Notes under the pieces: generated by a model
The model's database searches: none
What the model was told of the DNA's origin: nothing
What the model saw: the letters and a program-made list of their open reading frames with translations, nothing else
Shown here: positions 28,258-61,493 of the stretch, one piece after another
Layout of the letters: every line of letters starts with the position of its first letter
How positions within the stretch are numbered: position 1 is the first letter of the stretch
Program-made: the position numbers and the translations under genes
NCBI RefSeq assembly: GCF_000317475.1
Contig: NC_019729.1
Span: 62,001-126,000 of the forward strand
DNA from: Oscillatoria nigro-viridis PCC 7112
GTDB lineage: Bacteria; Cyanobacteriota; Cyanobacteriia; Cyanobacteriales; Microcoleaceae
DNA length: 64,000 nucleotides
Direction: 5' to 3'

Positions 28258-28439
28258 TTGGGCATTGGGCATTTAACTGGTTCCCCGGCTCTGCCTGGGA
28301 ATCGATATCCAGTGGCTCTGCCTCGCTTCTTGCGGAGGAAAATTGCAGGCAAAGCCGACAGATCTGCGTTCCCAGGATCTGCCTGGGAACGAGTTGAAAT
28401 TATTCAATCTCAAATCTAAAATCTCAAATCTAAAATCGG
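28258..28439. repeat. Palindromic TTCCCAGG/CCTGGGAA repeat
   Basis: The cbiQ-cbiO spacer contains two copies of a palindromic family: GTTCCCAGG-ATCTG-CCTGGGAAC at 28368-28390, and a less perfect one near 28280-28303. A related copy lies inside the membrane-protein gene at 59715-61493. It is followed by AAAATCT heptamers up to the cbiO start. Confidence 0.6.
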
Positions 28440-43070: not shown

Positions 43071-46000
43071 ATGAACCCAAATCTAGGAATGAACATCGCC
43101 GGCTACATTAACGGCGAATTTGGCGTAGGAGAAGGTGTCAGAGCCAACATCAGAGCTGCCGAAGCCGCCAACATTCCCTTCAATATCAACAACTTTACCC
43201 GCAGTCCCCACCGCAAACAAGACACCACCTATCAAAATTTTAGCCAAGACAATCCCCATCCCGTAAACTTAATTCAAGTCAACGCCGATGAAGTTGCAAC
43301 CTTTATCAAACATACAGGTTCCACCTATTTTGAAAACAAATACAATATCGGCTTTTGGGCCTGGGAACTTCCCGCATTTCCCCCAGAATGGCAGCCAGCA
43401 TTTAATAACTTTCACGAAATATGGACTTACAGCAACTATTGCGCCGAGGCCATTTCCGCAGTCTCGCCAATTCCCGTTATCAAAATCATGCCCAGTATTG
43501 CTCTCCCCGCACCTTCCCTGAACAGAGAAGCACTGAATTTACCTAAAGATAAATTTATTTTCTTGTTTGTATTCGACTTTTCCAGCCGCATCGAGCGCAA
43601 AAATACTTTAGCGACCATTCAAGCATTTAAACAAGCTTTTGGCGAAGATGACAGCGTATTATTGATTGTCAAATCTTCTAATTCCAACAAACATTTAGAG
43701 CAGCAAAATTTATTAAAGTCTGCCATCGCCAATTCTTCAAATATCAAACATCTAGACGGGTATTTGTCCAAAAATAAACTTAACGGTTTGCTGTATAATT
43801 GCGACTGTTACGTATCGCTGCACCGCTGCGAAGGATTTGGCTTAACAATGGCTGAAGCCATGTTTTACGGCAAACCCGTAATTGCCACAGGCTATTCATC
43901 AAATACAGAATTTATGAATGTCGGCAACAGCTATTTAGTCAAGTATAAGTTAATCCCAATTGAGAAAGATTGCGGGCCTTACAAAAAAGGCAATGTTTGG
44001 GCCCAAGCGGATGTCGAACACGCTGCTGACTTAATGCGGTACGTCTTCAACAATTACCGGGAAGCTCAACAAATTGGATCGATAGCGGCCGAGGAAATTA
44101 AGACTTTACTCAACCCGCAATTTACAGGTAATAAAATTAGAAAACGTCTCGAATATATTGCCGAGATTACCGATAACTTTCAAAGCATACCTCTGTCAGG
44201 AACAGCCACAGCGAAGTCTGCCAAAATAAGGGCTAACTTGCCACAATCAAAGCAACAAAGTCAATCAAAAGGAGAACTGCCAAACGAGCAGCCGAAGGTT
44301 AGCATCTGCATTCCGACATACAACGGAGAAGCATTTATTGGGGAAGCAATCAAAAGTGCTTTGGCCCAAACCTACGCTAACATAGAACTGATTATATCCG
44401 ACGACGGCTCCACAGACCGCACAATTGCGATCGCCCAATCATTCCAATCAGAAACATCAGTCGATTTCCGCATCGTACTGCACCGCAACTACGGCTTATC
44501 ACAAAACTGGAACTTCTGCATATCCCAAGCAAAAGGTCAATACATTAAATTTCTCTTTCAAGACGACTTGCTCGCCCCCGAATGTATTGAAAAAATGGTC
44601 GCACTCGCCCAAGAGAACCAAAAAATAGGTATGGTTTTTTCCCCGCGCGGTATCACCATAGCTGACAATGAATCTAACCCGATTTTGCGGAGAGCAGCCC
44701 AATCAATTAAAGATTTGCATAAAAGTTGGTCGAATTTAAAATCTATTCAGCCAGGAAAAGAATTACTGGCAGATACTAACTGCTTGAACAACCCGATCAA
44801 CAAAATTGGCGAACCGAGTACCGTCTTAATTGCCGCGCGAGTATTTGAAGAAATAGGATTGTTTGATTCGGGATTATCTCAGTATGTAGACTTAGATATG
44901 TGGTGGCGAATCATGGGGAACTATCACATCGGATTTGTAGATGAAAAACTGTCCTCACTGCGGATTCATCCCGAACAACAAACTTGGAAAAACTTCGCGG
45001 CTGGGGAAAATCATAAGGATGTAGTAAGATTTTACAAAAAACTACTAAATAGTCCTGATTACAGTTTCCTGGATCGACAAATCAAACAGACAATCCGCCA
45101 AAAGCTGGCATTGAGAACCCAGCCGAGTTTATCGGAATTGTCAGCACTGCTTGAGCAATACAATAAATTACCCTCAAAACAGCCTCTTCTAGCGCTGCGC
45201 CTATACCGCCAACAGCTAGCTGAATATTGGCTGAATTTGCCAGCGAAAAAATTAGAAACAGCTTACTCGAAAGACATGGGTAAAGCTCATAAATTGCTAC
45301 TAGATAGCGCCCTCAAAAATGAAACTTTAACTGAGGAAGAACAAAGTTTTGTCCAGCAGTTATCCTCGAAACTTGCTGAAGGAGGGGAAATTGCTGAGAA
45401 GATGCAATATCTCCTCGCGGCGATGCTGTACGGCGACGCTTATCAGTTGCCGCTTGAGTATAATAATGCAGCGATTCCCCAGTGGTTTTTTGACGATTTT
45501 TTGAAATTTATATTTCAGTCTCCCGGTTATTTTAAACAAAACTGGGAAGTAGAAAGGTACTCTGAATATTTCCAGCAGTTAATCAAGTACGTCGCAGCTA
45601 ATATCGCCAGTTTTCCCGATTCAGAAGTTTGGCGTTATTTGGCGGCTTTTATTGCGAAAAATGTGAGCTTCCAAGCTTTGTATTTGAGCGAGGGAAATCC
45701 GATCGAGATATTGAGTCAGCGAGCTGATATTCTGGAATTTTATTTGAAAAATATCGGCTGTCAAATAGAATGGAGTTTTTCTCAGAGACAAGCTGAAAGA
45801 AATAAAATCCGAGTTGGCTTTTTGCTTGATAAAATTAGTGATGAATCCGAAACTCGTGCTGCAATTCCGAGTTTTGAATATTTAGACAGAAGCAAATTTG
45901 AAATTATCGTGTACCATTTCCAGGTACAAGACGAGCGACTGGGGAAATATTGCGAAAATTGCGCCGACAAACTGGTGCAACTGTCAGAAGATTTGCCGAA

Positions 46001-46976
46001 TCAAGTTCGAGAAATGCGATCGCACGATTTAGATATTCTGCTAATCTGCACCAATACCACCGACACTTCCCAACCAAGCGCGCTGCTGTGCCTGCACCGA
46101 CTAGCGCGGGTGCAAATAGCTACCGGTGCATCAACCCCCGCCACCACCGGAACCCGAAATATCGATTATTTCATTGCGGGAGATTTGACATTGCCTGCAG
46201 GTGCAGCAGCAGATTATCGCGAAAAATTAATTAGTTTAGAAGGGTCGGGAGTTTGTTTAAGCTATACTGTAGGGTCGGCACCTGCCAAAGTTGAACCGAC
46301 TCGCAGCAGTTGGGGAGCCACCGACGAATCTGTAGTGTTCGTGTCCGGCGCTCAAGCTTTGACAATTACCCCAGAATTGAGAGAAACTTGGGCAAAAATT
46401 ATTGCTGCTGTACCGAATTCTATTTTAGTTTTGTATCCCTTTAGTTCCCGCTCAGAAAACTATCCGACGGTTCCTTTTTACAACCAAATTCGAGCGCTTT
46501 TTGCCGAATACGGTATTGACAAAAAGCGCTTAGTTGTGATTAAGGCGCTGCCATCTCGCGCAGATTGCATAAAATGTCTGGAATTGGCTGATATATATTT
46601 AGACTCCTATCCATACAGCAGTGCCTGCTCCTTAGCAGAACCGCTGTTGGTGGGGTTGCCTGTAGTGGCAAGAAAAGGGCAAACAACTCGATCGCGACAA
46701 TCAGCCGCAGTGCTCGAAGAACTGCTACTTCCGGAAATGGTAGCAGACAGCGAGAATTCTTATTTAGATCTGAGTACAGCACTGGGAACCAACCCAGAAC
46801 TGCGCCAGCACTACCGCGATCGAATCCTGCAAAAAATGGCGGCCAACCCCAAATATCTCGACAGTCGGGCTTGCTCGACCCAACTCGGAACACTCTTTGA
46901 AAGACTATTCCGAGAGTCAAGGAAGAAGGAAGTTCAGCAACTAAGCAGTGTACGGGATTTAACGGATGGATGTTGA
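43071..46976 (+). CDS. Three-domain glycosyltransferase: GT4-like, GT2 and GT41 (SPINDLY/OGT)-like
   Basis: A 1301-residue protein. Residues about 1-370 are a GT4-type enzyme with LHRCEGFGLTMAEAMFYGKP (Glu-x7-Glu motif). Residues about 400-640 are a GT2 enzyme with IPTYNGEAFIGEAIKSAL and IELIISDDGSTDRTI. Residues about 910-1290 resemble the catalytic part of O-GlcNAc/HMW1C-type transferases: DLDILLICTN, LARVQIATG, ADIYLDSYPYSSACSLAEPL and LVGLPVVARKG. Between 690 and 900 a helical, TPR-like spacer is suggested. GT41-like enzymes modify protein side chains, so this may build a glycan and attach it. The neighbouring exporter makes a secreted protein target plausible, but it is not shown. Confidence 0.8.
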   Translation: MNPNLGMNIAGYINGEFGVGEGVRANIRAAEAANIPFNINNFTRSPHRKQDTTYQNFSQDNPHPVNLIQVNADEVATFIKHTGSTYFENKYNIGFWAWELPAFPPEWQPAFNNFHEIWTYSNYCAEAISAVSPIPVIKIMPSIALPAPSLNREALNLPKDKFIFLFVFDFSSRIERKNTLATIQAFKQAFGEDDSVLLIVKSSNSNKHLEQQNLLKSAIANSSNIKHLDGYLSKNKLNGLLYNCDCYVSLHRCEGFGLTMAEAMFYGKPVIATGYSSNTEFMNVGNSYLVKYKLIPIEKDCGPYKKGNVWAQADVEHAADLMRYVFNNYREAQQIGSIAAEEIKTLLNPQFTGNKIRKRLEYIAEITDNFQSIPLSGTATAKSAKIRANLPQSKQQSQSKGELPNEQPKVSICIPTYNGEAFIGEAIKSALAQTYANIELIISDDGSTDRTIAIAQSFQSETSVDFRIVLHRNYGLSQNWNFCISQAKGQYIKFLFQDDLLAPECIEKMVALAQENQKIGMVFSPRGITIADNESNPILRRAAQSIKDLHKSWSNLKSIQPGKELLADTNCLNNPINKIGEPSTVLIAARVFEEIGLFDSGLSQYVDLDMWWRIMGNYHIGFVDEKLSSLRIHPEQQTWKNFAAGENHKDVVRFYKKLLNSPDYSFLDRQIKQTIRQKLALRTQPSLSELSALLEQYNKLPSKQPLLALRLYRQQLAEYWLNLPAKKLETAYSKDMGKAHKLLLDSALKNETLTEEEQSFVQQLSSKLAEGGEIAEKMQYLLAAMLYGDAYQLPLEYNNAAIPQWFFDDFLKFIFQSPGYFKQNWEVERYSEYFQQLIKYVAANIASFPDSEVWRYLAAFIAKNVSFQALYLSEGNPIEILSQRADILEFYLKNIGCQIEWSFSQRQAERNKIRVGFLLDKISDESETRAAIPSFEYLDRSKFEIIVYHFQVQDERLGKYCENCADKLVQLSEDLPNQVREMRSHDLDILLICTNTTDTSQPSALLCLHRLARVQIATGASTPATTGTRNIDYFIAGDLTLPAGAAADYREKLISLEGSGVCLSYTVGSAPAKVEPTRSSWGATDESVVFVSGAQALTITPELRETWAKIIAAVPNSILVLYPFSSRSENYPTVPFYNQIRALFAEYGIDKKRLVVIKALPSRADCIKCLELADIYLDSYPYSSACSLAEPLLVGLPVVARKGQTTRSRQSAAVLEELLLPEMVADSENSYLDLSTALGTNPELRQHYRDRILQKMAANPKYLDSRACSTQLGTLFERLFRESRKKEVQQLSSVRDLTDGC

Positions 46977-53527: not shown

Positions 53528-55432
53528 ATGAAAAAATTTATTTTATTTACTCTATATCTGATTCCTGTCCTCTTATTAATCGGATTTGTAGCGAATTTTA
53601 GCGTTAACGTTCCCGTTGATGACGAGTGGAGGTTAGCTAGCCTTTTTGAAAAAATAGCTCAGGGAAATGTAACTTTTAACGATTTTTGGGCTTTGCACAG
53701 CAACCACCGGATACTTTTCCCGAAAATAATTATTGCAGTGCTGGCTTTTGCTTCCAGATGGAATATTAATTATCAGTTGTGTCTCAGCATAGGTTTGGCT
53801 GCGATAACTTTTCTGGCTATGTACAAGTTATCCTCGATGCAAGTTAAGAATGTTGGGGATGATTTGTGGCATTTAGCTAATATTTTAACTTGTATTTTGG
53901 TTTTCTCTCTAGTTCAGCACGAAAACTGGCTTTGGGGATTTCAATTAGCGTGGTTTATCGTAAATTTGTGTTTTGTAGCTGCGGTTTATGCGTTGGTTTC
54001 AAATCACAAATTATTGCCGAATATAGCCGTTTTCAATCGGATGAAACAGAGATGTTGCACCAATATCGATAAGCTATTTAGGAACGGGCAAGATGCCCGT
54101 TCCACAAAAATTCAATGTTCTTGTGGAACGGGCATCTTGCCCGTTCTTGAGAATGATGCAACACCTCAGATCGAACAGAGTAGGGACACGGCACTGTCGT
54201 GTCCCTACTATATTCAAATATCGATTGCTGCTTTATTCTGCTTTATTGCTAGTTTTTCCCTCGCGCAAGGCTTGCTGTCTTGGTTGGCTGCAATTCCGGC
54301 TGTGGCGGCTTTAGAAGGAAATGCGGTAGAAAAAAGAAAAAGATTGATTCTATGGATATTGCTGTTTGCTGCAACTTGTGCTGTTTACTCAATTGATTAT
54401 CATCCCAGTCGGAAAACAAGTATTATTTCATTGTTGAATAAGCCACTTGTGGTAATTGATTACTTTTTGAGTCTGTTGGGTTCGCCAATTGTGCGATCGT
54501 CTGGAATTTCAGCATTAGTTGGATTGCTAATATTTGCAATTTTCTTATTTTTGGGATTCCACTTTGGAAGAAAGATTACCGAGCATCACGAGGCTTTACC
54601 TTGGCTGTCAATAGGTTTATTTTCGGTTTTATCGGCTCTGTTTATTACTGCTGGTAGGGCGGAATTTGGGGCGATTCAGGCGCTCGAATCGTCGAGATAT
54701 ACGACGAATTCGATTTTGCTGTTAATTGCTGTGGTTCAGCTAGGGCAATTGTTTGTCCGAGGTAACGATCGAGAAACAAAAGCAACGTTAAACCACAAAT
54801 ACATTTTTTTTTATCGGATGTTGGCAGGGCTGTTAATTGCTACAATTATTGTTAACTCTCAACAGGCGATCGCCCAAACTCGATCGGCACTTCTTTACAA
54901 ACAAGGCGCTCAAGATTGTTTGCAGTTAATCAACTATCTGCAACCGTCTGATTTTTTTGATAATTCGCCGGAAAGCTGTTTGAGGGTGCTGAGCAAAAAA
55001 ACTTGGCTGGTGAGAGAAGGCGCGGCAATTATCGACAAAATAGGTTGGAAAAAGTTCGCGAAAAATGTAGAGTTTATTTCTAATACCGAGAAAGTTTACG
55101 GCTATTTAGACCAACCTCAAACCAGCGATAAATCGGTGACTGTCAAGAAAAATTCTGCTGTCAAGGCTTCCGGTTGGGCGGTTTTGCCAGGAAATTTGAA
55201 ACAACCAAATATTGTACTGCTATCTGTCGGCGATAAACAATCTTTTTTTGCTAACGCTTATGTAAATTTGAACAGTCCCGACATTGCTAAGAGTTTAAAA
55301 TCTGAGTTGTACAACAATGCAAGGTGGGCTGTTGATTTGTCGGATAATAATTTGCCGATCGCCCAAACCGAAATTAAAGCTTGGGTGTATAATCCTGTTG
55401 ACAACCAGTTTGTCCAGTTGCGCGGAGGATGA
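53528..55432 (+). CDS. Polytopic membrane protein with in-frame palindromic repeats
   Basis: A 634-residue protein with about ten or more hydrophobic segments and a soluble C-terminal domain (about residues 510-634). It is related by layout to the gene at 59715-61493. A region of about 55 residues (RNGQDARSTKIQCSCGTGIL and on) is encoded by two palindromic repeats: a perfect 26-bp inverted pair at 54082-54146 and an 11-bp pair at 54180-54208. It lies between two membrane segments. The family resembles uncharacterised GT39/PMT-like or glycan-related polytopic proteins. Its GT-rich context suggests a role with lipid-linked sugars. Confidence 0.7.
   Translation: MKKFILFTLYLIPVLLLIGFVANFSVNVPVDDEWRLASLFEKIAQGNVTFNDFWALHSNHRILFPKIIIAVLAFASRWNINYQLCLSIGLAAITFLAMYKLSSMQVKNVGDDLWHLANILTCILVFSLVQHENWLWGFQLAWFIVNLCFVAAVYALVSNHKLLPNIAVFNRMKQRCCTNIDKLFRNGQDARSTKIQCSCGTGILPVLENDATPQIEQSRDTALSCPYYIQISIAALFCFIASFSLAQGLLSWLAAIPAVAALEGNAVEKRKRLILWILLFAATCAVYSIDYHPSRKTSIISLLNKPLVVIDYFLSLLGSPIVRSSGISALVGLLIFAIFLFLGFHFGRKITEHHEALPWLSIGLFSVLSALFITAGRAEFGAIQALESSRYTTNSILLLIAVVQLGQLFVRGNDRETKATLNHKYIFFYRMLAGLLIATIIVNSQQAIAQTRSALLYKQGAQDCLQLINYLQPSDFFDNSPESCLRVLSKKTWLVREGAAIIDKIGWKKFAKNVEFISNTEKVYGYLDQPQTSDKSVTVKKNSAVKASGWAVLPGNLKQPNIVLLSVGDKQSFFANAYVNLNSPDIAKSLKSELYNNARWAVDLSDNNLPIAQTEIKAWVYNPVDNQFVQLRGG
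54082..54146. repeat. Perfect 26-bp palindromic repeat inside a coding sequence
   Basis: Arms 54082-54107 and 54121-54146 are exact reverse complements; each arm is itself a palindrome (GAACGGGCA/TGCCCGTTC). A second small palindrome follows at 54180-54208 (GTAGGGACACG/CGTGTCCCTAC). The translation stays open through both, adding about 40-55 residues. Confidence 0.85.
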
Positions 55433-55435
55433 GGA

Positions 55436-56197
55436 GTGAAAATTTCTGTGATTATACCAGCTCACAATGAGGAGGGCTGTTTGTACGGTACTGTGCGGGC
55501 GATCGCCCAGACGCTCGATTTAGAAGGCATTCCGCACGAAATTTTGATTGTCAATGACAACAGTGTCGATCGAACTATTGATATTTGCCAGGAGTTGTCA
55601 GAGACTTTTCCCACAGTTAGATACATCAACAATCAACCTCCCAACGGTTTCGGATTTGCCGTGCGCCGGGGATTGGCGGAATTTGACGGAGATGCTGCCG
55701 CAATTGTGATGGCGGATGCTTCCGACGATCCGATAGATTTGGTAGCAGGATACCGCAAGTTGCAAGAAGGATATGATTGCGTTTTTGGTTCCCGCTTTAT
55801 CAAAGGCGGCTTTGTGGTTGATTATCCAATTCACAAGTTAGCAATTAACCGCTTAGCAAACTGGTTTGTCAAAAGTATTTTCGGCTTGCGGTACAGCGAT
55901 GTCACCAATGCTTTTAAAATTTACCGCAGAGAAGTAATTGAAGGCGTACAACCTATTTTGAGCCATCATTTTAATTTGACAGTCGAACTGCCTTTAAAAG
56001 CAATTGTTCGGGGTTTTTCCTATACGGTAATTCCTCTGAGGTGGTACAATCGGACTGCTGGTATTTCTAAGCTAAAAATCAAAGAGATGGGCAGTCGGTA
56101 TTTGTTTATTGTCTTGTATGTATGGCTGGAAAAACATCTGTCTCGCGGCGACTACCACCGGACTAGAAAGATAGCAAAATTAAAAGTGAATGCCTGA
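55436..56197 (+). CDS. Family 2 glycosyltransferase, polyprenyl-phosphate type
   Basis: A 253-residue GT-A enzyme. Motifs: SVIIPAHNEEGCLYGTVRAI at the N-terminus, ILIVNDNSVDRTIDI, VMADASDDPIDLVAGYRKL and TNAFKIYRREVIEG. The layout is that of dolichyl/polyprenyl-phosphate sugar transferases, without C-terminal membrane helices. It starts with GTG, four bases after the stop of the membrane-protein gene, and overlaps the epimerase gene by eight bases, so all three are probably co-transcribed. The sugar is unknown. Confidence 0.85.
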   Translation: MKISVIIPAHNEEGCLYGTVRAIAQTLDLEGIPHEILIVNDNSVDRTIDICQELSETFPTVRYINNQPPNGFGFAVRRGLAEFDGDAAAIVMADASDDPIDLVAGYRKLQEGYDCVFGSRFIKGGFVVDYPIHKLAINRLANWFVKSIFGLRYSDVTNAFKIYRREVIEGVQPILSHHFNLTVELPLKAIVRGFSYTVIPLRWYNRTAGISKLKIKEMGSRYLFIVLYVWLEKHLSRGDYHRTRKIAKLKVNA

Positions 56198-57254
56198 GAG
56201 AATTTTAATTGTTGGTGGTGCCGGTTTCATCGGCAGTTGTTTGGCAATTGGGCTGAAAAAACTGCACCCGGAATGGCAAATAATTTGTTTAGATAACCTG
56301 CGTCGCCGGGGATCGGAATTGAATCTGCCTCGGCTTAAAAGTTGCGGGATTCAGTTTGTTTACGGGGATATTCGCACAGCGGCAGATTTAGATCCAGTTG
56401 CATTGAATGCTGACTGCATTATAGATTGTGCTGCGGAGCCTTCTGTGCTGGCTGGTTTTAGTTCGCCACAGTACGTTTTGCAGACGAATTTACTGGGCAC
56501 TGTGAATGTTTTGGAGTTGGCGAGACAAACGGGTGCTAGTTTGCTGTTTTTGTCTACGAGTCGGGTTTATCCGATCGCCAGTGTCAAGTCTGTTAAGCTG
56601 TTAGAGTTGCCGAATAGATTTGCGATCGCCCCCGAGCAAACTTTACCCGGTATATCGCAGTTGGGCATATCAGAAGACTTCCCATTAAAAGGACACCGTT
56701 CGCTTTACGGAGCAACTAAATTAGCTTCAGAATTGCTGATTGAGGAATACAGGGAAGCATACAATGTGCCGGCAATTATTAACCGCTGCGGGTTAATTAC
56801 CGGGGCTTGGCAAATGGGTAAAGTCGATCAGGGAGTTTGCGGTTTGTGGGTGGCGGCTCACTATTTTCAAAAGTCGCTGAGTTATATCGGTTTTGGTGGC
56901 AGCGGGAAGCAAGTTAGGGATTTGCTGCACGTTGAAGATTTGTTGAGGTTAGTTAATTATCAATTAGAACATTTTGCTGAATTTGACGGCGAAGTTTTTA
57001 ATGTTGGTGGCGGTTTGATCAATAGTCTTTCTTTGGTTGAGACAACTGATTTGTGCCAAAAGATTACCGGGAAATCGATTTCAATTAATCCTATTTTGGA
57101 GGAACGCGCGGGGGATATTCCGATTTTTATTACTGATTCTTCTAGGGTGATGGAGAAAACAGGATGGCGGCCTGTTATTAGGCCGGAAGCGGCTTTGCAG
57201 GATATTTATGATTGGATTGCTGCTAATGAGGTGGTTTTAAGTTCGATTTTATAG
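56190..57254 (+). CDS. NAD-dependent epimerase, CDP-paratose 2-epimerase-like
   Basis: A 354-residue short-chain-type sugar epimerase. It shows the NAD motif GGAGFIGSCLAIGLKK, catalytic Tyr-x3-Lys in YGATKLASELL and the stretch INRCGLITGAWQMGKVDQGV with LSYIGFGGSGKQVRDLLHVE. These closely resemble CDP-paratose/tyvelose 2-epimerases and relatives. It makes or rearranges a nucleotide sugar for the adjacent transferase. Exact substrate is inferred only from similarity. Confidence 0.8.
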   Translation: MPERILIVGGAGFIGSCLAIGLKKLHPEWQIICLDNLRRRGSELNLPRLKSCGIQFVYGDIRTAADLDPVALNADCIIDCAAEPSVLAGFSSPQYVLQTNLLGTVNVLELARQTGASLLFLSTSRVYPIASVKSVKLLELPNRFAIAPEQTLPGISQLGISEDFPLKGHRSLYGATKLASELLIEEYREAYNVPAIINRCGLITGAWQMGKVDQGVCGLWVAAHYFQKSLSYIGFGGSGKQVRDLLHVEDLLRLVNYQLEHFAEFDGEVFNVGGGLINSLSLVETTDLCQKITGKSISINPILEERAGDIPIFITDSSRVMEKTGWRPVIRPEAALQDIYDWIAANEVVLSSIL

Positions 57255-57338
57255 GGATTTTTTAACCGCAGATGCAGGCGGATAAACGCGGATAAACGCA
57301 GGTGTATCGCTCTGCCTGAATCTGACTGCAAATGCGAG

Positions 57339-58028
57339 TCATGAGTCTCTGCCTCTATTGTTTTTTTTCGATGCTTTAACAAACATTTGACCTCCTAAAA
57401 ATTGCCACAAAACAGGTAATTTTAAGTAAACTTTTAAAAGCCAGGGCGAGGCAGGTCTGCCTTTGGTCGAAAATGGTAAAAATCGGGGTATAATTAGCTC
57501 GATTTCAAAGCCGACGGTTTGTAAAAGTTCTTGCAGCGATAAGTGGGTAATGGGTAATTGATGATCGATAAAATCATAATATTCTTTGAACGAATATTTG
57601 AAATTGGGTTGTATCACTAAGAGAGAACCGCCTGGCTTAAGCGCCTCAAAGCAAAATGAAATAATTTGGATTAGTTCTTCTTTATTGCGGAGATGTTCAA
57701 AAAAGTTAGAGATAAATATTCGGTCAAATTTTTCGGAAAAAGCTGGGATTTGGTCAAGATTTAAAACATCAATGTTCAGCACTTTTACATCAGGATTTGC
57801 AAATAACTTTGAATCGGGATTGAGGTCTATTAAACATTTTTTTTCTGCCACGATTTGATTTATAAACTCGCAGTAACCGCCGCCAATATCTAAAACTGCT
57901 GATTCTGGAGGAACATAATTTTGTAAAAAATCTTCAATTAAAACTTTCCAGAGTGCCACCTTCGCTTGCCTTTGTCGGGAATCAAAGCGGTTGGCATACA
58001 ACTTTTTGAGATATGTGTCAGTTTTCAT
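57339..58028 (-). CDS. Class I SAM-dependent methyltransferase
   Basis: About 229 residues from the ATG at 58028; an upstream in-frame start gives a repeat-like extension. Motif I is SAVLDIGGGYCEFINQI, followed by an acidic loop at VLNIDVLNLDQ and IFISNFFEHLRNKEELIQII. The form is typical of small-molecule or sugar methyltransferases (Methyltransf_23-like). It lies on the minus strand facing away from rfbC, with starts about 50 bp apart. The substrate is unknown; a sugar is likely from context. Confidence 0.78.
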   Translation of the reverse strand: MKTDTYLKKLYANRFDSRQRQAKVALWKVLIEDFLQNYVPPESAVLDIGGGYCEFINQIVAEKKCLIDLNPDSKLFANPDVKVLNIDVLNLDQIPAFSEKFDRIFISNFFEHLRNKEELIQIISFCFEALKPGGSLLVIQPNFKYSFKEYYDFIDHQLPITHLSLQELLQTVGFEIELIIPRFLPFSTKGRPASPWLLKVYLKLPVLWQFLGGQMFVKASKKNNRGRDS

Positions 58029-58078
58029 AGTAAAATAGCAGAGACAGAGTATGAGTTTATCACGCGATACAGCCAACT

Positions 58079-58624
58079 ATGAATGTTATATCTACCGAAA
58101 TACCGGAAGTTCTGATCGTTGAGCCTAAAATTTTCGGAGACGATCGCGGTTTCTTTTTTGAGAGTTTCAATCACAAAGCTTTTGTCGAAAAAACAGGCGT
58201 GACGGCCGAATTTGTTCAAGACAATCATTCCAAATCTTCTAAAAATGTCCTGCGCGGTTTGCACTACCAAATGCAGCAGCCTCAAGGCAAATTGCTGCGG
58301 GTAGTTGCAGGCGAAATATTTGACGTAGCGGTGGATATTAGAAAAAGTTCGCCGACTTTTGGCCAGTGGGTGGGCTGTTTGCTGAGTTCAGAAAATAAAC
58401 GGCAATTTTGGGTGCCGGCGGGATTTGCACACGGTTTTTTAGTGGTTTCCCAGACGGCTGAAGTTTTGTACAAAACTACAGACTACTATGCACCAGCCCA
58501 CGAGCGGTGTATCCTGTGGAATGACCCGGATTTGGCGATCGACTGGCCGCTAGATGGTGCCCAACCAATCTTATCAGCTAAAGACCAAGCTGGACAAACG
58601 TTGAAAAGAGCTCAAGTGTTTTGA
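58079..58624 (+). CDS. rfbC: dTDP-4-dehydrorhamnose 3,5-epimerase
   Basis: A 181-residue cupin-fold enzyme that makes dTDP-4-keto-L-rhamnose. The signature LRGLHYQMQQPQGKLLRVVA contains the catalytic His; GEIFDVAVDIRKSSPTFGQW and VPAGFAHGFLVVS are also typical. Length is standard. rfbD follows with its start two bases after the rfbC stop, consistent with one operon. rfbA and rfbB are not in the window. Confidence 0.95.
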   Translation: MNVISTEIPEVLIVEPKIFGDDRGFFFESFNHKAFVEKTGVTAEFVQDNHSKSSKNVLRGLHYQMQQPQGKLLRVVAGEIFDVAVDIRKSSPTFGQWVGCLLSSENKRQFWVPAGFAHGFLVVSQTAEVLYKTTDYYAPAHERCILWNDPDLAIDWPLDGAQPILSAKDQAGQTLKRAQVF

Positions 58625-58626
58625 TC

Positions 58627-59499
58627 ATGAAAATTTTACTCGCAGGCGGCAGCGGACAGCTAGCTCAAGAATTGCAGCCGATTTTATTATCTTCGGGAGA
58701 GGTTATTGCGCTCGATCGCACTCGCCTCGATTTATCCCAACCCGAAAGCATCCGTCAAGCCATGGCTGAAATTCAACCGGATTTAGTCGTCAATTCGGGT
58801 GCTTACACTGCGGTAGACAAAGCGGAAAGTGAACCAGAATTAGCATATGCAGTCAACTGTATTGCCCCAGGAATTTTTGCAGAAGAATGTGAAAAACTGG
58901 GAGCAAGTTTGATTCACTTTTCCACTGATTATGTATTTGACGGCAGCCACGGTTCTGCTTATTTGGAAACAGATTCTACGAACCCGCTGGGAACTTACGG
59001 CAAGTCTAAATTAGCAGGCGAGGTAGCAATTCGGAAAGCGGGAAACCGACATATTATTATTAGAACCGCGTGGGTTTACGGCAACGGTGGCAAAGGTAAT
59101 TTTGTCAAAACCATGCTGAGGTTGGGAAAGGAAAGGGAAGAAATTAGAGTAGTAGCAGATCAGATCGGAAGTCCTACTTGGACTGGGGATTTAGGTGCGG
59201 CGACTTCGCAAATTATTCCTCTCCTTGGGTCAGAAACTTTTGGCACTTACCACTACACTAACAGCGGTGTTTGTAGTTGGTACGATTTTGCGATCGCCAT
59301 TTTTGAGGAAGCAGCAACACTCGGCCTTCCCCTAAAAGTTCAGCGCGTAATTCCCATCACCACCTCCGAATATCCGACACCCGCCAAACGCCCCGCTTTT
59401 TCTGTTCTCTCTACGGTAAAAATATCAGCACTTCTGGGTACGTATCCTCCCCACTGGCGGCAAGAACTCAGAAAAATGCTGGCAAGAGAAGTGAAATGA
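58627..59499 (+). CDS. rfbD: dTDP-4-dehydrorhamnose reductase
   Basis: Reduces dTDP-4-keto-L-rhamnose to dTDP-L-rhamnose. The 290-residue protein has the NAD(P) motif LLAGGSGQLAQELQ, the VVNSGAYTAVDKAESEPELA stretch, HFSTDYVFDGSHG and the catalytic YGKSKLAGE. ATG at 58627 is preferred to a TTG two codons upstream. With rfbC it gives the last two steps to dTDP-rhamnose, which probably feeds the local glycan. Confidence 0.95.
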   Translation: MKILLAGGSGQLAQELQPILLSSGEVIALDRTRLDLSQPESIRQAMAEIQPDLVVNSGAYTAVDKAESEPELAYAVNCIAPGIFAEECEKLGASLIHFSTDYVFDGSHGSAYLETDSTNPLGTYGKSKLAGEVAIRKAGNRHIIIRTAWVYGNGGKGNFVKTMLRLGKEREEIRVVADQIGSPTWTGDLGAATSQIIPLLGSETFGTYHYTNSGVCSWYDFAIAIFEEAATLGLPLKVQRVIPITTSEYPTPAKRPAFSVLSTVKISALLGTYPPHWRQELRKMLAREVK

Positions 59500-59714
59500 A
59501 AAATTGAGTCAAGTTCAAAACATGAGGGCGGGTTTTGTACAGATTTATTTGCGATATGCCAATTATTAATCCTAATCCCGCCCCTTGTATCTTGAAAGAG
59601 CTACATTTGAATTTACTGTTGGGTGCGGGCGGGTTTATTAGATTATTGGTCTTAGGTAGAAATTATTGGTAAAACCCGCCCCTACTAATCCAAATATTTG
59701 TGTTTACAAATCCC
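59500..59714. repeat. GGGCGGGTTT/AAACCCGCCC repeat spacer
   Basis: The rfbD downstream spacer holds a GGGCGGGTTTA...TAAAACCCGCCCC-type inverted pair (about 59627-59684) and further GGGCGGG pieces. A degenerate copy of the same family lies at about 1178-1238. Confidence 0.5.
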
Positions 59715-61493
59715 ATGAAAGTCAAGTCAGAATATGTTTTAATAGTTGCATCAGTTCTCGGCATTCTAATACCAGCGTCATATATTTTGTACTTGATATC
59801 CCAAGCGGGAGACTTGTCTAATTTTGATTATTGGTGGATGACGTGGCATTTTTATTCAGTAGACGGTTTCTCTACAAATCCTTTGAATTGGATATTTCGG
59901 GCGAACGAGCATTTTGTCTTGATTCCGGCAATTATTTATGCGTTGAATATCGTTGTCACCAAAGGTTCAAATATTGGTTTATGTTTAGTTGCCTGGTTCT
60001 TGGCTTGGATTCAGTGTCACGTATTAATTGCTCTGCTGCCGTTAAAAGTGAGGCGTTTTCCCCTGCAATTTATCTCGCTACTCCTTTGCATTTCTATTTT
60101 TAATTTTACTCCGGCGGCGGCTCACAATTGGATGCGGGGATTCAGCGGGGTTCACTGGATAATTGCTAATTTATTTGTGATTTGTTCTATATTTTGTTTG
60201 CAAGCCTATGTGACAGCTTTGTTAAATGAAAGGGAAAAAGAGCCTGCCGATCTTCATTCCCAGGCTTTGCTTGGGAACACGGAAGGGAAACAAAATAAGT
60301 GGGTAATTGGCAGCATTATTTTTGGTATTTTAGGCTGTATTAGTTACAGCACTCCTTTAGCTTTGTGGCCGATATTGTGTGCTGCTGCTGTTGTGCTGCG
60401 GTTTCCTCGGCGAATAACTTATTTGTATTTCATTGCTGCAACTACGGTGATAGGGATTTATTTTTTAACTTATAAAACTCCATCTTATCACCCTTCTTTA
60501 ACTAAAATTAACCCGCTGAAAACTCTCGAATATATTCCCACTTATCTCGGCGCAATTTTTAGCGAAAATATTATTGTTGCTTCAATTATTGGTATAATTG
60601 GTTTGATTGCAGCGACGGGTTTTGTGGGTTATTGGCTATTTGTAAAAAAGGTCGATAGCCCGGATTGGCTGCCTTGGCTATCAATCCAACTTTACACGCT
60701 GCAAACGGCATTAATGGCCGCTGTCAGCCGATCGGGATTTGGCGTCGAACAAGCCACCGCTTCCCGCTACGCCACACTCCCAGCTTTGTTTTGGATGAGC
60801 ACAATTGTGCTGACAGTATTGTGGGTGCGCGAGTTGCAGCCAACACCAAGAATTCAAGGGCGTTGGCTGACACCGCTGTTTGCAGTCGCCACAGTTGCGA
60901 TTATTTTAATGTACGGGGTGGGAGGCGAAACTGCAAGGGCGATCGCCCACAGAGCAACCTATCAACCGTTAGTAGCATTATCACTGCAATTAGGCATCAC
61001 CGACGTAACGCTAATTAAAGACCGCGTAGGCAACAAACCGGCCGCTTTTATCGGGTTAATCGACGCCTTAAAAACTAACAACTTAGTTCCATTTAACCGA
61101 GACATCAAAAAACACAATTTCTGTGCAGCATTAGACACAAAAATCGCTCCCAACTTACTGTCAGCACCCAAAGACGGAGTACCCGGATATTTTGATACAG
61201 TAACTAAACTCGCACCCGCCGCCTCCAGAGTAATTGGCTGGGTAGGAGACCCCGAAAACAATGTAAAATGTATTGCCATTCTCAACCAAGAAAATGTCGT
61301 TCGAGGTTTTGCCATTTCAGGATTTCCCCGCCCCGATTTAGTTAAATTATTTGGCCCTTCCTACGAATTCGCAGCTTGGAGAGGATACGTTCAAACATCA
61401 CCAACAGATAAATTATTGACAGCCTATGCCTCATTTAAAAACCGCGAAGGTTGGGTAGCCTTGCGAAACTCCCAAGCGATCGATAAAAACTAA
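59715..61493 (+). CDS. Polytopic membrane protein, paralogue-like, with in-frame palindrome
   Basis: About 592 residues from the ATG at 59715 (a GTG five codons upstream is possible). It has ten or more hydrophobic segments followed by a C-terminal soluble part from about residue 430. It shares its layout with the 53528 gene: compare TYLGAIFSENIIVASIIGII with that gene's middle, and YATLPALFWMS with its YTTNSILLLIA. The insert EPADLHSQALLGNTEGKQNK lies between two membrane helices and is encoded by a TTCCCAGGC-TTT-GCTTGGGAA palindrome at 60257-60277. Function is unknown; glycan context is suggestive. Confidence 0.7.
   Translation: MKVKSEYVLIVASVLGILIPASYILYLISQAGDLSNFDYWWMTWHFYSVDGFSTNPLNWIFRANEHFVLIPAIIYALNIVVTKGSNIGLCLVAWFLAWIQCHVLIALLPLKVRRFPLQFISLLLCISIFNFTPAAAHNWMRGFSGVHWIIANLFVICSIFCLQAYVTALLNEREKEPADLHSQALLGNTEGKQNKWVIGSIIFGILGCISYSTPLALWPILCAAAVVLRFPRRITYLYFIAATTVIGIYFLTYKTPSYHPSLTKINPLKTLEYIPTYLGAIFSENIIVASIIGIIGLIAATGFVGYWLFVKKVDSPDWLPWLSIQLYTLQTALMAAVSRSGFGVEQATASRYATLPALFWMSTIVLTVLWVRELQPTPRIQGRWLTPLFAVATVAIILMYGVGGETARAIAHRATYQPLVALSLQLGITDVTLIKDRVGNKPAAFIGLIDALKTNNLVPFNRDIKKHNFCAALDTKIAPNLLSAPKDGVPGYFDTVTKLAPAASRVIGWVGDPENNVKCIAILNQENVVRGFAISGFPRPDLVKLFGPSYEFAAWRGYVQTSPTDKLLTAYASFKNREGWVALRNSQAIDKN
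60257..60277. repeat. TTCCCAGGC/GCTTGGGAA palindrome inside a coding sequence
   Basis: A 9-bp arm palindrome with a TTT loop (one mismatch in the arms). It belongs to the same dispersed family as 28368-28390. The reading frame continues through it. Confidence 0.7.

Follow-up and report, generated by a model that had tools for sequence, protein, structure and literature searches.

Why should two related membrane-protein genes of a cyanobacterium carry different palindromic repeats, each read in frame, in what appears to be the same loop? This question was raised by a sequence-only reading of 64,000 nt of the Oscillatoria nigro-viridis PCC 7112 genome (contig NC_019729.1, positions 62,001–126,000 of the forward strand; this whole stretch is the window, and coordinates are counted from its first letter). 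The genes concerned, both on the forward strand, are gene A (53528–55432), an open frame encoding a multi-pass membrane protein of 634 aa, and its paralogue gene B (59715–61493), an open frame of 592 aa. We compared them across species of the same genus (G numbers denote genomes, G000 being the 8.27-Mb cyanobacterial host genome, and L numbers denote loci); the relatives of A comprise 30 named loci, mainly from Microcoleus, Tychonema and other Oscillatoriales. The comparison makes it very probable that elements of the repetitive extragenic palindromic (REP) or miniature inverted-repeat transposable element (MITE) type insert widely and survive only where they keep the reading frame and fall in tolerant loops.

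The palindromes in A lie within the open frame, as the sequence-only reading had held. One inverted pair (54082–54110 and 54118–54146) spans 29 nt per arm with 97% complementarity, its outer 26 nt pairing perfectly (54082–54146), and the other (54173–54193 and 54195–54215; 86%) contains a perfect 11-nt core (54180–54190 and 54198–54208). The inserted segment is larger than the palindromes to which that reading had confined it: measured against the empty site found in 20 orthologues of the genus, it occupies 189 nt, or 63 codons (54023–54211, forward strand), so that the loop DNA measures 246 nt in G000 and 57 nt in the empty orthologues. The insert consists of a dispersed element of approximately 118 bp, the second palindrome and short flanks. 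The element (54044–54161, forward strand), whose best outside matches span approximately positions 31–147 of the query, contains two opposed REP units of the family R1: copy 1 (54082–54102, forward) is read as NGQDARS and copy 2, in the opposite orientation (54126–54146, reverse), as GTGILPV. The second palindrome, R2 (GTAGGGACACGG...; 54180–54208), is read as RDTALSCPY. Gene B carries a repeat of a different family, R4 (TTCCCAGGC...; 60257–60277), which is read as SQALLG between two helices; its palindrome, TTCCCAGGCTTTGCTTGGGAA, has one mismatch between the arms. It belongs to a loop (60234–60281, forward strand) between helices 144–175 and 190–210 that is composed of decayed repeats R5 and R4. 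Pairing analysis revealed the inverted-repeat structure of R1 and R2, and that of R4 is apparent from its sequence. Two more R4 palindromes, with starts 88 bp apart, are found at 28281–28389 of the window.

Profile comparison with hhalign, using 26 of the 30 A loci (L012, L017, L024 and L028 left out) and 29 of the 30 B loci (L058 left out), aligned the two families with a probability of 98.1% (E = 7e-14) and set the two repeat-bearing loops opposite each other. On this alignment, A and B are distant paralogues, and the repeats of the two families occupy the same loop, as had been proposed.

To place the repeats in their genomic context, we used a sample of 864 kb, made of 40 stretches of 20 kb and the window; copy numbers scaled from it are estimates. 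Core patterns, window copies included, occurred 21 times for R1, 8 times for R2 and 8 times for R4, and not once in a first-order Markov shuffle of the same sample. Altogether, nine repeat-core patterns gave 77 matches against none in this single shuffle, 77 being an upper value, because only a few bases separate R1 from R1b and some matches may have been counted for both. Genome-wide, R4 has 60 sites at up to 3 mismatches, the one in B among them, compared with 1 for the pattern read backwards, and a 221-base query from A gave 130 BLAST matches in its own genome, a number that, like those for the G026 element below, often counts both strands of one place. The palindromes in the window are not chance occurrences, because their cores recur in the sample and are absent from the shuffle. 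Of 18 Y1_Tnp matches in the host genome, 17 exceed the Pfam cut-off; a matching transposase, of the RAYT or IS200/605-like type, might move the repeats.

The loop of A exists in filled and empty versions. Among 28 same-genus orthologues (the loop counts omit G003, where only part of A is present at the end of a contig, and G027, which has no B match), the loop is empty, at 57 nt, in 20 and filled in 8. These 20 species are the homologues lacking the insert for which the sequence-only reading had proposed looking; its opposite case, the same inserted residues in all species, does not hold for A and nearly applies to B, where the residues are still repeat-derived. The insert of G000, an R1 element with R2, is confined to G000, G015 and G020. 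The loops of G017, G022 and G009 hold two or more R2 units, that of G007 a decayed R2-like unit assigned by eye, and that of G026 an element of approximately 121 bp. When each loop was compared with approximately 860 kb of its own genome from which A and B had been cut out, six of the eight filled loops had 14–59 matches. Nineteen of the 20 empty loops had none, and the single 17-nt match of the G028 loop was taken as chance. An assembly artefact was rejected, the insert being nearly identical in G000, G015 and G020 with matching flanks. A single old, diverged insert was also rejected for A in view of the empty sister species and of the G026 element, which has no match in G000 or G018.

The G026 loop provides the clearest view of an insertion. 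Relative to its sister G011, it has 129 extra nt, which can be divided into a 121-bp element and an 8-bp duplication AAAAATAT. This AT-rich target duplication is apparent, with 3 mismatches in the flanks, and the 8-bp division was preferred because it fits the element ends found in the genome comparison. Searches with the element returned 51 matches in G026, 43 in G017, 31 in G011 and 1 short match in G020, and none in the two other genomes searched, G000 and G018. A target duplication is apparent in G026 only; the ends of R1 in G000 are not sharp. The features seen are thus those of REP or MITE elements: many dispersed copies, inverted repeats, and empty sites or an apparent target duplication.

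The loop of B has a longer history. In 19 of the 28 species it matches dispersed repeats of the same genome (in the sample of approximately 860 kb), and by eye most of the remaining nine resemble R4/R5 or R3 in a decayed state; G023 lacks these repeats. The R5–R4 arrangement is found in most same-genus species, often decayed, and this insert is old; for it, we keep a single old insertion. Other contents differ. R3 is present in forward orientation in some species and in reverse in G003, G004 and G014; the B loop of G006 holds an R1 element and that of G007 an R6/R7 array; and in G009, G015 and G018 the order is R5–R4–R3, with later repeats beside older ones. The proposal of independent insertion therefore stands in that there were several independent events. 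They do not form a simple pair, with R4/R5 in B old and widespread and the insert in A restricted to three species.

Counting shared states once, we estimate at least seven, and probably nine, separate acquisitions. Nine is the sum of four for A and about five for B; seven results if the decayed G007 unit in A is left out and R3 is counted once. A tree of 1146 columns from A and B grouped G000 with G015 (support 99), G011 with G026 (99) and both of these with G017 (100), and G007 with G014 (100). G017, G022 and G009 have R2 although the loop is empty in close relatives, a distribution that needs parallel insertion or recombination and was counted as one event. Together, the empty sites, the apparent target duplication, the unrelated families and the two orientations argue for repeated independent arrival.

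The arrivals have left the reading frame open in nearly all cases. The frame is open through the loop in 27 of 28 orthologues of A and in all 28 of B (55 of 56 in all), with the frame at each locus defined as the longest open one, such that a broken gene would appear short. These open frames, with the filled and empty versions of the loop, support the suggestion that it tolerates inserts. The exception, gene A of G009 (L012), loses its frame in a stretch of nine A directly ahead of a threefold R2 array, which may stem from real slippage, phase variation or a sequencing error. Of the six frames of the G026 element, examined over 118 nt, a single one lacks stops, and the gene uses that one; the R1 element has two frames without stops, one of which is used. 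The ratio of nonsynonymous to synonymous substitution rates (dN/dS) in the A insert was 0.88 and 0.65 for G020 against G000 and G015, respectively, compared with 0.33 and 0.32 in the rest of the gene, and the corresponding pN/pS ratio in the B loop was 0.53 compared with 0.20 elsewhere in the gene; these comparisons rest on small numbers of changes. Frame retention and the substitution pattern together suggest that the insert peptide is probably translated and weakly constrained.

We examined whether such variation is general in the window. Twelve of its genes have at least 8 orthologues in 20 neighbourhoods, matches below 55% identity being dropped. In nine of them (3571 core aa; 9–21 sequences per gene), no insert site reaches 8 aa. 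By the same measure, A has three in 560 aa (106, 165 and 352) and B two in 592 aa (194 and 318, numbered from the GTG at 59700, which together with the ATG at 59715 is a possible start of the frame that is open to 61493). The additional loops of A also receive repeats: loop 107 contains R3 in G004, and seven species have R1-like units in loop 352, doubled in the case of G019. The R1-like loci are L018, L019, L020, L023, L024, L025 and L027; L015, L016, L017, L021 and L022 carry another repeat-like sequence, GATTGCTTCGTNNCTCGCAATGAC, in the same place. This sequence is common in G024 only, with 14 sites, 2 of them in loop 352, and has 1 site in each of five other genomes searched, which in G012 and G018 is the loop itself.

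The sequence-only reading had also considered that repeats are recruited into this gene family. We found that the A/B family is not special as a carrier, because the same kinds of repeat are read in frame in unrelated genes of the sample, including those for hydantoinase A/B, radical-SAM, LpxB-like and nitrite/sulphite-reductase-like proteins. The hydantoinase A/B fusion (L123:12624–16376) has two families in frame, read as VGAVPPCPP near residue 260 and CGTGILPV near residue 651. Two of the unrelated genes were compared across species, and both have variable loops. In the inter-domain loop of the reductase-like protein (L098:14918–16495; orthologues L181–L195), an R1 peptide of the GILP type is present in 9 of 15 same-genus loci, with tandem units in three (G013, G010 and G006); the orthologues of G007, G010, G011 and G014 have one TAG inside the match. 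The loop of the LpxB-like protein likewise varies between species. L129 and L102 are weak cases, one being a repeat-rich DUF4347 protein and the other having its repeats at an N terminus that may be untranslated. A protein of 2192 aa that looks kinase-like by eye (L130:10727–17305) carries an R3 segment and a tandem peptide repeat, SHRQDATSSHRQDACATSGHGEDAT, that looks repeat-derived. Most copies lie elsewhere: at most 14 of the 77 matches, again an upper value, fall inside open reading frames (ORFs) of at least 120 aa, tested with 30-aa margins, although such ORFs make up 74% of the sample; A and B account for 4 of the 14.

The surroundings offer hints to what the carriers do. A search of Pfam with A and B returned no significant match for either. 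Predicted models built on shallow alignments reached a mean pLDDT of 58 for B and 51 for A, and below 50 in the loop of each. Searching with the B model, VIA-align returned ALG3 (Z = 15.1; 286 residues, rmsd 4.5), PglB (Z = 13.7; 312 residues, 5.0) and ArnT (Z = 9.6), and likewise listed OST, Pmt4, EmbC and AftA; ranks 1–23 were all GT-C enzymes except one, GPI transamidase. Helical models often reach Z scores of 13–14; the assignment is kept despite this because the list of matches is uniform. Foldseek pointed the same way for B, weakly (best E = 0.011), and gave weak matches of A to PglB, AglB, AftA, AftB and ArnT (best E = 0.068). The B model thus resembles GT-C glycosyltransferases, and A probably has the same fold, judging from these weak matches and its homology to B. 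An aspartate, D32 in A and D38 in B, is invariant in the alignments of 26 and 29 sequences; it may correspond to the acidic catalytic residue in the first external loop of GT-C enzymes. A family-2 glycosyltransferase gene (55436–56197, forward strand; Pfam Glycos_transf_2, E = 2.6e-22) adjoins A and is presumed to encode its polyprenyl-phosphate-sugar synthase partner. In G007 (L028), A and this downstream gene form one open frame of 916 aa, which supports the two working together. The models, the neighbour and the fused frame make a pair of polyprenyl-phosphate-sugar synthase and GT-C transferase a likely role. Judging from translations, we take nearby genes to resemble a sugar-nucleotide epimerase, RfbC and RfbD, and the locus looks like a sugar-polymer gene cluster. 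The repeat-bearing loops are probably on the cytosolic side of the membrane, a placement that requires the helix at 63–75 in A, or 69–82 in B, not to span it; if the short helix of A is indeed non-spanning, the register of ArnT would presumably put the A loops, including 107 and 352, in the cytosol.

How did the same loop come to be used so often? We propose that the palindromes of A and B represent copies of short mobile repeats, dispersed and non-autonomous, which inserted into coding sequence. Insertion would be fairly random, and selection would purge copies that shift the frame, add a stop or strike folded parts, such that survivors gather in short, weakly constrained loops of GT-C-like membrane proteins. 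Resident repeats may then decay, duplicate in tandem and receive further insertions, by which the loop would become a small composite of repeat-derived peptide, translated yet mostly dispensable. Recurrence is explained most simply in this way, by a loop that tolerates inserts. The loop might instead be a targeted site, with DNA favoured by the mobile elements or their transposases through AT richness or nesting in older repeats, and its repeated use would then reflect mutation bias more than tolerance. The AT-rich apparent duplication in G026 would fit such targeting, as would the frequent position of later repeats beside older ones in the B loops of G009, G015 and G018, but the families that use the loop are unrelated and differ in their ends, they enter it at different points, and the same families occur in unrelated genes and mostly outside ORFs; we therefore regard targeting as unlikely. 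It is quite improbable that the inserts have been recruited for a use, for example to provide the partner glycosyltransferase with adjustable linkers in the cytosol or to vary a surface polysaccharide. An insert held in frame in three species, changes that are synonymous only between G000 and G015, the apparent sugar-polymer cluster and the joint frame of A and its neighbour in G007 are all compatible with usefulness, yet 20 of 28 orthologues of A do without an insert, dN/dS in the G020 pairs is higher in the insert, decayed and unrelated sequences stand at the same place, and similar inserts occur in unrelated enzymes. That the hairpins are left untranslated, bypassed or removed at the RNA level, like the byp elements (the bypassed elements of yeast mitochondria), is hardly credible. 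Hairpins this strong in coding sequence would suit such a process, but the seven to nine acquisitions keep the frame, and if the hairpins were skipped their length and stops would be irrelevant; on length alone, the chance of seven acquisitions doing so is about (1/3)^7, or 5e-4. The sole broken frame, that of G009, shifts ahead of its repeats.

Insertion followed by selection for frame and tolerance has several observations to contend with, which weigh against it or against the figures that we attach to it. The two remaining filled loops of A matched little in the samples of their own genomes: that of G007 had one match, and that of G026 had none, its element being found in its own genome later. 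The best-scored division of the G026 insertion gives an 11-bp duplication with 4 mismatches, slightly better than the 8-bp one. The backbone of the tree is weak (support 33–69), which makes the event counts estimates, and the R2 units of G017, G022 and G009, and forward R3 in B, may reflect recombination. Between G000 and G015, the A insert has 3 synonymous and 0 nonsynonymous changes, which, few as they are, would on their own fit constraint. A large multi-domain glycosyltransferase gene of the window (43071–46976; 1301 aa) has four insert sites of at least 8 aa, and net loop charge counts do not settle the membrane side. A broader view, to which we would give a low probability, is that Microcoleus continuously remodels its proteome through in-frame insertion of unrelated palindromic mobile repeats, with some loops, such as those of A and B, as standing acceptors in which repeats would accumulate, duplicate and be replaced from one species to another, yielding lineage-specific cytosolic linkers that alter partner docking or polymer output.

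Elhai and others (2008) reportedly dealt with very small mobile repeated elements of cyanobacteria, a likeness suggested by the title. A string search of the literature for the repeat peptides retrieved no paper, and none of the matches listed in our searches, judged by their titles and the starts of their abstracts, described repeats recurring within genes of Microcoleus. The kind of event is nevertheless known. According to the available parts of the reports, the Rickettsia palindromic elements (RPEs) are short palindromic repeats within ORFs that keep the frame (PMC10969869, PMC3767692), and different RPE groups occur near the same site of orthologues (PMC3767692). Intragenic GTAG/CGTC REPs are described for many bacteria in the available sections of Di Nocera and others (2013) (PMC3733652). 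Different REPs stand at about the same site of recB in Xanthomonas campestris and Xanthomonas oryzae, and, in the same sections, both uvrA genes of Opitutus are hit at different sites (PMC3733652). To call the present case unusual, as the sequence-only reading did, was therefore too strong, because intragenic palindromic repeats, and different ones at nearly the same site of orthologues, have been published for Rickettsia and for recB of Xanthomonas.

The resemblance to RPEs, as far as those sections describe them, is in the way of working, that is, short dispersed palindromes in ORFs of unrelated genes with the frame intact and at near positions in orthologues; likeness and difference alike are drawn from description rather than from sequence. 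Here, by contrast, the host is a free-living cyanobacterium, the families are clearly unrelated, and there are empty sites, one apparent target duplication and two paralogues. As with the GTAG/CGTC REPs, monomers, dimers and clusters are translated in proteins, and R2 and R3 begin with GTAG, whereas R1 and R4–R7 as written do not, with only the leading tetranucleotide compared. The available cyanobacterial passages of that paper, however, name no intragenic cyanobacterial case, and its available sections do not describe recurrence in one loop over many species and families (PMC3733652). What is added is a genus-wide series at a loop that two paralogues share: several families, one of them in both orientations, together with empty sites and, in one species, an apparent target duplication. 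The kind is known from RPEs and intragenic REPs, and a series of several families at a single loop clearly adds a new case. The 28 species, with their filled and empty gene versions, amount to a natural insertion experiment on how selfish DNA comes to encode protein and at which places in a protein it is tolerated. The Rickettsia japonica paper, in its available part, left open whether hotspots or the divergence of one old insert account for shared sites (PMC3767692); for one protein loop that question is answered here, with support for independent arrivals in several cases.

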